Source of the DNA: Styela clava
Taxonomy: Eukaryota > Chordata > Ascidiacea > Stolidobranchia > Styelidae
DNA length: 64,000 nucleotides
Reading direction: 5' to 3'
Assembly: GCF_964204865.1 (NCBI RefSeq)
Contig: NC_135251.1
Span: 21,824,001 to 21,888,000 of the forward strand
The notes below the pieces were generated by a model. The model saw only the letters and a list, made by a program, of their open reading frames with translations. It was not told the DNA's origin and searched no databases. Positions 36,964 to 42,900 of this stretch are shown piece after piece (the first letter of the stretch is position 1; every line of letters starts with the position of its first letter). The position numbers were made by a program, and so were the translations under genes.

Positions 36964-39900
36964 ATGGCAACAGTAACATATGTTGGACAATGGCGACCAC
37001 ACAGGCCCCGGGGGCCAATCGGAGCACATTTTAAATCTCCCGGACCCAAATATATGCTGCCAGGCTCTACAGGTAATTATGTTATTATTTAATCATGTTA
37101 TTATATATATATATATTATTGTTGAATTCATAATTATCATACTCATTTGAACTAACAGTGAATGTGACGATAAAAATTCAATTTTTTTAAACCACATTTC
37201 AAATTCTCTGATACATTTTTTGCATTTTGTCCACAATGGTTAACCTAAAGAAAAAGATAGTCAGCGCTAAATGCATCAAGCCTGAATATATTTTGAAGCT
37301 TGAACCCGAAAGGGCAAAAGTTGTAAAATCTGTTTTGAAGCGATAAGAAAAAAAAGTTGCTGAGAATTGTTCGAACAATGGTAAGACACCAGCTTAGATG
37401 CATCTATTTCTATGAAATATTTTCAAATGTAACATTTTCAAAATTTCAACATTTGCCTTTTTTATTTTGAAACTCTCAATTTAACATAGAACCTACATTT
37501 TTCAAATACTTTCTGATTGTTTGAAGAGTTACTGTTGTAATGTCTATTGATGAAAAAAATGTAGATATTGCCCTATTGATGCTGTTTGAATAAGAATTGT
37601 TCTTTTTTTTACATGCCTTTTGAAATGCTGCCTAACAAAAACATTCCTCTTTTCAAGTCAGTTTTAGTTTGATTGATGTTGTTAACGTTTAAAATGACTC
37701 ATTACTGTGTTAGGTTGTACATTTTTGCACCGTATTTGGATGATTATTAAAGTTACAACTATCTGGATAATGGTAATATAAGAAATGTAATGAATGGACT
37801 GTAATACACTATTATAATAAATTAAACAAACATTATTGATATTGATAGTATATAGAGATCGAAAATTTATAGACATAATAATTTTTTGTTTAAGCATGTT
37901 TCCTTTTAATATCAAAATATATTATCTGAAGAAGTAAGAATATTAAGAATATTTTTTTCTGTATATAAATATCCAACTATGATATTTTTGAATAATTTAA
38001 AGTTGTCATTTACTGTAATTTAATATGTTCACCCTTAATTGTGTATTATAAAGTTAAAATATAACCTACCCAATCTTCAATAAATTAAATTATTCAATAT
38101 GATGCAATACGAGAGTCTTGTTACACCCTAATAGAAAATACAGTGTTTTAATGTGCAGCAGGACTCTTACATTGCATAGTATGGTCATGTTTATTCCTGC
38201 TACAGCATCCTTGCTTTCTATGTATACGACGGATTCACTAACACAAAAGTATTGTGGAAGGATTGGGAGTTAGATTCATGTAACAGCTATTGATAGTTAT
38301 ATTCATTAAGAATTGTACTTTATCAAATTAATCTTTTTTTCAGGCTTCACTACTCATGATTTGAGGAAAAGAAAAGCTCCTGCATTTAGCTTCGGAACAA
38401 GACATGCAACCTTTACAAACGAACACAGCCCTGGTCCTGGTGGATATCTTGTACCTTCACATATCACAAGAGTTGGAAACGATGGCACACCTAGATATTC
38501 ATTATATGGGCGACCTAGGGATATGCTGGCATTCAAAACACCAGGACCAGGTACTGTAGACTGTATACTGTAGATTTTGCATTACGATAGTTCCAGAATT
38601 TCTTTTGCAAATACTTTCCTTTTTGAATGAATCAATACTGATTCTAGTTATATGCATTTTGTCCAGTTTCACTATTATACCGATCCTAATAAGGATTGCA
38701 ATAGTTAGCTAGTCTTGTAATCAATATAAGACATAATGCATAGCTATTTTTCACTACTGGGACCCTCATGAATTTTTTATGGAACCATGAAATATATTGT
38801 GTATTACTGAAAAGTGACTTAAATATTGATTTTAAATTGATAATTTGTCCAATCATACTCGGAAATTATTGGATTGTTTGTATTTGAAATGAACTGCATA
38901 AAGGAATCATTTAGTACGAGTTTCTTTTTTGTAAAGTGCTTGTTACAAGTTTAATTCAGATCAATTTTCCATACCTAGTGTTCCATATGAATAATTTATT
39001 AGTTTTCCATAAATGCATCTTCAGGTACCTACAGCCCAGAGAAAAGTGGGAGATCGGCATATAAATCAGCTCCTATTTACTCATTATCAAGTCGAATGAA
39101 AGGGAATAAAACTGATAACAGCCCTGGTAAGTTAATAATGGAAGATATTTTCTCAGGGTTCATTAACATTATACGAAATATTGTGTGGATAAAAATAATT
39201 TTCAACATTTTAATAAAATATATGGTTGGCACATCATGCTAACTATTACGAATACGCTTGCCATCGCACTTTTGATTAGCCTGCGAGGTTTTGCAGATTC
39301 GAATCTAGTGGGGGATAAATATGTGCATTTCTGGACTCGTCACTGCTGCTGGTTGGTTATGGTTTTCTCTCCACCATCAAGTCTATGCATCTGAAACACA
39401 ATACCTGACAAACTATTTCCATACGTGGTAACTAGTCGAAAAGTTGTGGTACGCCATAGGGTTAAGCCATCTAATCCCTTTCCTCTCCTCCAGGAAGAAT
39501 GTGAAAATTTTATCTTATCCGCTCTGGGAAGTTCTAATATTTCACATGAATCTATGTTATCAAATGGTTAATCCATTGCTGGCCAATTTAGGTCCTGCCG
39601 CTTATATGCTGCCAGATGTAGTCGGCCCCCATGCAATAGGCAAAGCATCACTACCCGCATACAGCTTGACAAGTCGACGGAGTTATGGCTCGTTTCACGA
39701 TGACCTACAAAGGGTTTGTGAAATGTGAACTAGATTGCCATTTTGTGTCGGTGTGCTGTGGCTAACACTTATTATTCATTGCACTGTTACATATGGAATT
39801 TGTGTGAGGATTGGAGTGACGTGGTGTTCATGAGAGTGGTTTCGAACATTTGCTGTTTTTTCATTACATTCAGTTTGAATTTGAAATGCGTAAATCATAT

Positions 39901-42900
39901 ACAAGCAGAAGTGGTACATGTGTAGCTGTATTACATCATCACAAATATTTTATAAAATCACAAAATCATAACACATTTTGTTGCTTGCTGCACTAAGTAA
40001 CATTCATAACAGTTTCATACATGTGCACTTCTGCATTTCTCATGTACTTGCAAAATTTCATGTCATACTTATTAATAAACAGTATTGAGTATAAAACCTA
40101 AACTAAATCATATTTTACAATATTACGAAATCGAGTCAAAAGTAAATAAATAAATTCATTTATTACAATATTATAGGCCTATTATATATTATTGTATAAT
40201 TACGATATTAATTTCATATTTTTACCAATTAAACGAATCGGGTTCATTACATTATACCCTGAATATGCTTTTTTATTACAGATAGATCATGAGCAATATG
40301 ATCATGAGCTTTTTTTTTTTTCATCATTTTCAAATTTAATAAGATATTGATTTATAGGGACTACACACACATTGCGCCTATATATGAACAATATTTACGG
40401 CAGATAGTGATTTAAACTGACCTGAGGTTTGTTTGGCTGGTTAATACATAGTAGTTATATTATATAGGTATCTATTTATTACCTCAAATTTTATTGGTCA
40501 AGTTTTTAACATAGATTTTGATAGAAACACTAAAGTTGTTTTTCTAAAAATCATGATTCAATTACCTTACCCCATGGAAGTAACCATTGTTTGCACAATG
40601 ATATTCATTTGAGAAGCCATTTTGTGTTTGTTGTTCACCTTTCCATTCATGCCACCATGATGAATATTTGTCTTTCCTGAATCAATTATTTATGATTGTT
40701 TGTCTGGCAGGCGTTTATGATTCAATGTTAAAACATTCAGCTCAGCGTTTTGAAGTGAAATGTTTACCTATTTTATATCCACTTCAACAAGCATTATGAT
40801 ACATAAGTCTTACAAAAAAAAGTTCTTTCATCCTTGAGTTATACATATTTTTTATAACTTTGAAATTAAAAATCCATTTGATGTCACTGACCTTCATCAT
40901 GCCATTAGTGTGCACAATTTGGACTCCTGCACACCTATCCATGCTGTAAATTGCCTGTAAACTCATAAATTATTTTCTTAGAAAATTCGAACCTCTGTTT
41001 GTGTGCGATTGTACGCTAAGTTTCAGTAATCCAGGATGCTTTGCATGAAAGTTACGTTCTCTAGAATATGTTTCAAATGGCCTGTTTTTTATGTCACCTT
41101 CTAGGTATTTTGCCAATTTTATTTAGTTCCACCCCATTGAATTGTTGGCAGTTCTTCGATTATAAAAGGGGAAGGGGTAGATTTCAATATTAATTTGATT
41201 CATCTATCATGATTCTCAGTACATGTGAATTTTTCATTGGTTCGATGTTATAGGACCGGCTGCCTATGGATTGCCCAAGCTTGGTGGGTTGAACATGGTA
41301 AATTCACAATCCGCTCCAGCATACACATTGAGTGGTCGCACAAACAATGGCGGATTTTCTGAAGATTTGTCAAGGGTGAACAGCACCATTAATCTGCATG
41401 TGTTGGTGCATGAAATCTTTTGAAATATTTTTTTACTTTTGGCATGAAATATGCTTGACATCCATGCTCTTTCAAATTTTTAGGAATTCACAACAATGTC
41501 GATTTCACACATGCATGTCTTGCAACATTATATCGTAATTTTTGATGGTAATTTTCAACCTTGCATAACTGTATCACTACACTCTCTTAGTTTTATACAA
41601 AGCAGTTGATACTTTTTATAGAAGAATAGAAAATTTTTAGTCAAGAAAGCTATATTTAGCATAAATTTAGAATTGCAAAGTTTTCAATGAAACCAGATAT
41701 AGAGGAAAAGCGAGATAGAGAAAAGCAGTCAATATAACGTAGCCCGTTTTATCATAGGATATAGGTCCTTATAGGATATCGCATAAAGATATTGAGTTGA
41801 ATGTCTCGCAACTATGTTTTCTTGAGTCAAACTGTATGCAGTTTGTCAGTGTTTGTAATATTTTAGGACCTGCTGCCTATAATCTACCAACAATGTTGGG
41901 ATCAAAGGTTGTATCGGAAACATCAGCACCAGGTTATTCAATGACAGGAAGAGTGACTGTAGGTAGCTTTCATGAGGATTTGAGGAAGGTTTGTAGTCAG
42001 TGAGAGAGTCAATTGCACTTAGATAGAGGGCGGATATATTTTGATACTTGAAATTTTTCTAGGAAATTTATTTTGATTCATCAAAATATTCGAGATATGA
42101 AAAAACTACTTTAGAAAATCATATTTTTGTTTAAATAGTAATTTGTATCAATTCTCTTAAAATAAAACAGGCTTTTCAAATAGACTTCAAATCTGATTTA
42201 AAGTGAATTAATTGAACACATCTGATCATTTTGGCATGTTGGATAAAATTGATCCGGAAAATACGGTAGGCATGTGCATTTTAATAATGCATTGGATTCG
42301 GGGAAATTTACAATCAACTCTGACTCTGGCCTGGAAAAAATTTGATTCTGGCTCCTGACTTTAGATTATACCTCTCAGAAGAAGTTGAATTTTGATAACG
42401 AAAACTTCGACTTCGCCGGAATTTAGAAATGCTTAGTCTTCTTTGATTATCACCATAAAAAGTCTGAAATTTCCACTCTGACAAATTTGAAAAAATCTCA
42501 TGTAGCTCCAAAGAAAACATGTCCACTGCTCCAAAATAATGCTTGAAATATTAATTAAGTGGTAAAATATTCTCGATCTCTTCATTTCTATTAATAAATC
42601 TTATCAAAGTATGGAAATTTTCAGCAACATTATTCAATATTTAATTAGGTAACAATATTCGTATTCACTAATCATTGCTTACTAGAATTTTCATGCCTCA
42701 GTGTTTTTGTTCAGCATGTTTTTATGATTTTCAGCTGTAGACAAATCAATGCTTTTTTGTGATTTGCTTTTGTGTGAACATCAAAATCATATTTTATATC
42801 TACTACATTTTGTGTTTAATTCCTCGTGCATTTTCATATTAAATACAATTCATTTGATTCGTTTTCAGACTCCTGGACCTGGTACTTACAGAGTTATTGA

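Follow-up and report, generated by a model that had tools for sequence, protein, structure and literature searches.

Mutually exclusive exons have been described in several settings (papers are cited here and below for those of their parts that concern the point at hand). In human, 377 (60%) of 629 mutually exclusive clusters contain exons with lengths that are not divisible by three (PMC5740500). The muscle myosin heavy chain gene (Mhc) of arthropods is a single gene which, by means of mutually exclusive exon sets, does the work for which most other animals have a gene family (PMC2257972). Weaker splice sites have been named as part of the mutually exclusive mechanism (PMC6071210). Here we analyse a CIMAP1/ODF3 gene on the forward strand of a 64,000-nucleotide (nt) stretch of the Styela clava genome (contig NC_135251.1, positions 21,824,001 to 21,888,000). 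This whole stretch is hereafter called the window, and coordinates are counted from its first letter. Based on its sequence, the gene very probably combines a cluster of three mutually exclusive copies of exon 4 with two alternative last exons.

Concerning the protein, CIMAP1/ODF3 homologues are known to bind axonemal doublet microtubules (PMC11779644), and ODF3A is counted among the inner proteins (PMC10663601). In Ciona, ODF3 is reported from sperm flagella and, in a very small quantity, from branchial cilia (PMC4427456). This distribution is compatible with the presence as well as with the absence of tissue-specific isoforms.

Gene structure and identity

All exons are located on the forward strand. 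The coding part of exon 1 runs from the ATG at 36964 to 37072 (109 nt, ending in phase 1) and aligns with the N-terminus of the chains 8iyj_Y0 and 8otz_A1. Exon 2 (38344–38550, 207 nt) and exon 3 (39025–39126, 102 nt) are symmetric, from phase 1 to phase 1. They are followed by the three copies of exon 4, namely 4A (39592–39713), 4B (41254–41375) and 4C (41867–41988), each of 122 nt and each leading from phase 1 to phase 0, and by exon 5 (42869–43009, 141 nt, phase 0 to 0). The two alternative terminal exons, 6a (43624–43716) and 6b (45107–45199), have 93 nt each and both contain a stop codon. All six combinations of 4A, 4B or 4C with 6a or 6b translate into 257 amino acids without an internal stop, and the gene could thus yield 3 x 2 = 6 protein isoforms.

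The identification as ODF3/CIMAP1, proposed in an initial annotation made from the sequence alone, was borne out by homology to chains in the PDB and by the SHIPPO repeats of Pfam. Isoform Aa shows full-length homology to six distinct PDB sequences, with E values from 1.5e-33 to 5.3e-84; for five of the six, E is 5.4e-62 or lower. These are the ODF3 chains 8snb_1a (5e-84) and 8snb_5A (5e-62), the CIMAP1A chains 8iyj_Y0 (1e-74) and 8otz_A1 (8e-74), CIMAP1B (8otz_At, 1e-67) and CIMAP1C (8otz_A0, 1.5e-33). We take 8snb to be from sea urchin, 8iyj from mouse and 8otz from bovine. Isoform Cb has seven PDB matches; isoform Bb also has seven, at a loose cut-off, the weakest being a ribosomal protein (E 0.5). 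The sperm-tail PG-rich repeat SHIPPO-rpt (Pfam PF07004) is found in six stretches per isoform in all three isoforms scanned, out of six possible. A relative of the protein was not found in viral contigs.

The constitutive parts, compared with the first 17 residues omitted, are identical to 8snb_1a at 95 of 165 sites and to 8otz_A1 at 80 of 165 (36:21 columns, p 0.06). They also tend towards 8snb_1a rather than 8snb_5A (95/165 vs 83/166; 30:18 columns, p 0.11). The first 17 residues themselves resemble the CIMAP1A chains (WRPHRPRGP).

A second gene start at 25353 was considered and is unsupported, the match to exon 1 comprising only 13 amino acids (tblastn in the window, E 0.46). An inverted dispersed repeat (36157–36273 and 48940–49058, 82% identical) has one copy upstream of exon 1, at a distance of about 0.7 kb.

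The three copies of exon 4

The initial annotation had reported three 122-nt exons, each with intact splice sites, entry in phase 1, exit in phase 0 and an open frame, which share the motifs GPAAYxLP and F-x-(D/E)-D-L. Coordinates, lengths and all of these features are exact in the sequence, and the borders of each copy are AG/GT. Its description of exon 4 as the third PG-rich repeat needs correction: counting the PG motifs in the translation makes it the fourth. The copies have 46–49% pairwise protein identity, and each exon 4 peptide finds the other two with tblastn in the window at E values of 3e-9 to 8e-12, so their homology is not due to chance. The same residue is present in all three copies at 18 of the 43 positions, and nine of these 18 are identical in all four homologous chains compared.

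Exon 4 is the sole asymmetric internal exon; the lengths of exons 2, 3 and 5 are multiples of three. Because exon 4 alone changes the phase, the frame is lost when it is skipped and also when two or more copies are included. Skipping leads to a stop in exon 5, whereas in the joined forms AB, BC, AC and ABC the stop falls within the second copy. In the skipped and joined forms the stop is located 109–346 nt before the last exon junction, and premature stops this far upstream are expected targets of nonsense-mediated decay. The earlier claim that only exactly one copy is compatible with the frame thus stands. Equal length, equal phase, frame-locking and, as described below, codon constraint in every pair are strong support for mutually exclusive use. 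It is very improbable that the copies are cassette exons without exclusivity, two of which are sometimes joined and tolerated: the docking search of four introns, presented below, found no mechanism that would forbid joining, as this explanation would have it, but each of the joined forms is cut short as described.

Each mature transcript would take one of 4A, 4B and 4C and one of 6a and 6b, giving up to six proteins with a common N-terminal and central frame. The differences would be confined to the C-terminal 30 residues and to one PG-repeat segment of about 40 residues. At the level of the protein, at least, exclusivity would be ensured, since a wrong number of exon 4 copies is predicted to cause a frameshift, an early stop and nonsense-mediated decay.

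The duplicated terminal exon

The terminal exon is duplicated too, which the initial annotation had missed. Exons 6a and 6b have equal length, enter in phase 0 and are 57% identical over 28 aligned residues (tblastn, E about 4e-8). Between them (43717–45106), tblastn found no forward-strand match of any exon peptide; the only two matches are on the minus strand and at chance level (E 0.36 and 4.5). Exon 6b is therefore most simply assigned to the CIMAP1 gene. Possible poly(A) signals, both consensus matches only, are the AATAAA at 45550–45555 for 6b, 351 nt after its stop, and the ATTAAA at 45005–45010 for 6a, which is the sole AATAAA or ATTAAA between 6a and 6b and lies 1.3 kb after the 6a stop.

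Two repeats are located close to the terminal exons. One is an exact 16-nt repeat, with one copy (43562–43577) 46 nt upstream of 6a and the other (43974–43989) 257 nt after the 6a stop; it may be a shared regulatory element or a product of chance. The other is a tandem repeat at 45797–45885 (period about 42 nt; 98% identity over 47 aligned bases), about 600 nt after the 6b stop.

Constraint and age of the duplicates

The proportions of synonymous and nonsynonymous differences (pS/pN, Nei–Gojobori) are 0.83/0.39 for A–B, 0.70/0.40 for A–C, 0.74/0.39 for B–C and 0.90/0.35 for 6a–6b. The observed amino-acid identity was reached by none of 5000 simulations per pair in which codon constraint was absent. 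Third codon positions are the least conserved in all four pairs (Fisher p 0.016, 0.016, 0.006 and 0.001). In every pair, synonymous differences are near saturation and nonsynonymous differences are restrained, so the copies are old and were retained by purifying selection. The B–C pair carries the most weight: its divergence (p 0.006 for its third positions) shows that B and C have both been constrained over much of their history.

A recent duplication or an artefact was ruled out, since synonymous sites are near saturation and the introns have no extended similarity. In particular, it is extremely improbable that the copies are haplotypes or collapsed paralogues in the assembly: they differ at about half of their bases and are found in order, with matching phases, in one continuous stretch.

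A further alternative is that a single copy works, probably 4A, and that 4B, 4C and one terminal exon are relics which are no longer spliced. This would fit with the match of 4A to CIMAP1A 8otz_A1 at 26 of 43 sites, which is above its matches to 4B (21) or 4C (22), and with the modest splice sites of all copies. However, a pN of 0.39 against a pS of 0.74 for B–C, together with the third-position test, requires long constraint on both. All frames and splice dinucleotides are intact as well, in agreement with the earlier statement that none of the copies looks dead. A very recent loss of one copy would leave the same divergence pattern and look the same. On balance we consider the relic explanation quite unlikely, and a cluster in which all three copies and both terminal exons are in use remains our preferred interpretation.

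Splice sites and the choice of one copy

Several points weigh against such a mutually exclusive cluster. Open frames are weak evidence when taken by themselves, as no stop occurred in 8–12% of the exon 4 copies and in 19% of the terminal exons that were simulated. No AATAAA or ATTAAA was found within 1.2 kb after exon 6a, so that 6a as a terminal exon needs a distant or non-canonical signal. Concerning the mechanism of exclusivity, steric hindrance is excluded because the introns between the copies, of 1540 and 491 nt, are too long for it. Also, a docking search covering the six pairs of four introns (3-A, A-B, B-C and C-5), each compared with 28 shuffle sets, found in none of the four a multi-partner docking site beyond every shuffle. 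Lastly, the splice scores come from a simple consensus of base frequencies. The scores themselves speak for the cluster: on this scale the five alternative acceptors score 4.0–5.7, all below the three constitutive ones (6.5–10.7), and the exon 4 donors of 4A, 4B and 4C score 3.4, 6.0 and 4.7, compared with 5.8–11.8 for the four constitutive donors.

Two of the three exon 4 donors are thus below all constitutive donors, and that of 4B (6.0) is above the donor of exon 2 (5.8). The acceptors end in TAG in all three exon 4 copies and in CAG in the five others. Mixing of the major and minor spliceosomes was rejected, all borders being ordinary GT–AG and none U12-type by eye.

The 'dock' score of the docking search measures how well one segment pairs with each of the three remaining introns. 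For introns 3-A, A-B, B-C and C-5, it was reached by 17, 3, 21 and 11 of the 28 shuffle sets, respectively. The summed pairing score was reached by 24, 1, 5 and 3 of them, in the same order. Intron A-B is the nearest to a docking intron, within chance for four tries. Complementary intronic docking sequences, the search for which the initial annotation had suggested, are thus represented by one weak pairwise outlier, and a multi-partner site beyond all shuffles is lacking. This outlier is the duplex between 42009–42036, directly downstream of exon 4C, and a candidate pairing site upstream of exon 4B (40984–41012), at -30.9 kcal/mol. Such a value was reached by 0 of 28 and by 1 of 160 shuffles, for one of six intron pairs. 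With B and C looped out by this duplex, A would be left; we regard this as a lead only. An overlapping stretch (41992–42018) pairs with 39322–39350 at -26.7 kcal/mol, with two of the 28 shuffle sets as low. The two complementarities of the candidate region beside exon 4C (41992–42036 in all) overlap and would compete with each other; statistically they are weak.

These pairings could be read as competing RNA structures which run the choice: the docking region 41992–42036 would pair with either 39322–39350 or 40984–41012 and loop out different exons, adding a mechanism to the mutually exclusive cluster. The two duplexes and the multi-partner scores of intron A-B, the best of the four, speak for it. 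With six intron pairs and four docking introns compared, these figures are not compelling. The second pairing is ordinary when scanned the other way (11 of 28), no strong third partner for the site was found in intron B-C, and the site occupies positions 4–48 of its intron, beside the donor of 4C itself. We therefore consider a choice run by competing structures unlikely.

Returning to the mutually exclusive cluster as such, the safest statement on exclusivity is policing by frame combined with regulated weak sites. All copies would be transcribed, and the choice among them would be regulated through weak splice sites under trans-acting control. The swapped segments may tune how CIMAP1 is seated on doublet microtubules from one cilium to another or from one site to another, and they may alter the contact of this extended protein with tubulin or with its neighbours. 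An exon choice that separates sperm from somatic cilia is plausible.

Resemblance of the variant exons to paralogues

Among the copies of exon 4, 4A is the nearest to the CIMAP1A chains 8iyj_Y0 and 8otz_A1, and 4C is the nearest to CIMAP1B 8otz_At and to the ODF3 chains 8snb_1a and 8snb_5A. Over the 43 sites of exon 4, 8otz_A1 matches 4A at 26, 4B at 18 and 4C at 20; 8otz_At matches 4C at 24, 4A at 19 and 4B at 20; and 8snb_5A matches 4C at 22 and both 4A and 4B at 14. Concerning the terminal exons, 6a is nearer than 6b to 8snb_5A, with 18 and 12 matches, respectively, in 27 aligned columns (one of which is a gap in 5A).

Columns with a difference between two copies were subjected to sign tests (15 for exon 4 and four for exon 6, uncorrected; CIMAP1C was omitted, and so was CIMAP1B in the exon 6 comparison, where its C-terminus was aligned with a gap). 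For CIMAP1A, 4A is favoured over 4B at 10:2 with 8otz_A1 (p 0.039) and at 9:3 with the 8iyj chain (p 0.15). For 8snb_5A, 4C is favoured over 4A at 9:1 (p 0.021) and over 4B at 10:2 (p 0.039), and 6a over 6b at 6:0 (p 0.031). Of the 19 tests, four have p values of 0.02–0.04 and 15 exceed 0.05; after correction, none remains below that level. The best tree of the exon 4 segment (eight sequences, 43 columns) places 4A beside the CIMAP1A chains, with all bootstrap values at 18–69%. Grouping of the three exon 4 copies was not rejected by the approximately unbiased test (p 0.22, IQ-TREE, which warned that 5000 replicates are too few).

This pattern suggests, without proving, that the exons hold a variety which other animals keep as separate genes. 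The fuller version, which we put forward tentatively as a possibility of rather low probability, is that one CIMAP1 gene carries multi-gene diversity in the form of alternative exons, 4A being CIMAP1A-like and 4C in combination with 6a giving a form like 8snb_5A, and that splicing would set the variant for a given doublet site or type of cilium, comparable to Mhc in insects.

Other features of the window

An open reading frame at 25542–26468 belongs to the glucosamine-6-phosphate isomerase family (Pfam PF01182) and is one uninterrupted frame, possibly an intronless gene or a retrocopy. Another uninterrupted frame, at 28046–29008, contains two RNA recognition motifs (Pfam RRM_1); we presume a likeness to DAZAP1/Musashi. 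A pair of inverted repeats (17207–17516 and 21898–22212, 91% identical) is adjoined by a block of direct repeats (22333–23267) with a spacing of about 344 nt. Searches of the window with Rfam at gathering scores and with ARAGORN found nothing.

Comparison with known systems

This type of arrangement is already known, and the CIMAP1/ODF3 gene is, as far as our literature searches reach, a well-supported new example. No paper on exon duplication in ODF3/CIMAP1 was found by title among the matches listed in the open-access literature, supplements excluded. The one paper which pairs 'ODF3' with 'mutually exclusive exon' deals with cancer drugs. Two studies of human tandem exons do not mention ODF3 in their main texts, neither 'ODF3' nor 'cilia' was found in the main text of PMC5740500, and no mention of CIMAP/ODF3 was found in PMC13066092.

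The human clusters, as described in the cited parts of PMC5740500, resemble the present one in having adjacent homologous exons of similar length and the same frame. The present cluster differs from them in that three copies are found in a ciliary PG-repeat protein, together with duplicated terminal exons, and in that it is known from DNA alone. The docking–selector clusters of Dscam and 14-3-3zeta, according to the relevant part of PMC6071210, share the tandem exons of similar length and the choice of one only, but a multi-partner docking site clearly beyond the shuffles was not found here. Mhc, in the part of PMC2257972 cited above, is a motor protein whose exon set has been studied, whereas CIMAP1 is an extended microtubule-associated protein whose exon sets are predicted.

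If the interpretation is true, the locus would offer a natural experiment in which the same scaffold has one 40-residue segment and the C-terminus swapped, and these changes could be linked to tissue and to doublet position. The CIMAP1A/ODF3 (SHIPPO1) chains of the PDB are like the present gene in full-length homology, SHIPPO repeats and length class (251–254 amino acids). In these structures the variety of CIMAP1 is present as distinct chains (1A, 1B and 1C in 8otz; 1a and 5A in 8snb), which presumably stem from separate genes, whereas here it would reside in alternative exons of one gene. The axoneme would then provide a clear example in which alternative exons take the place of gene duplication.

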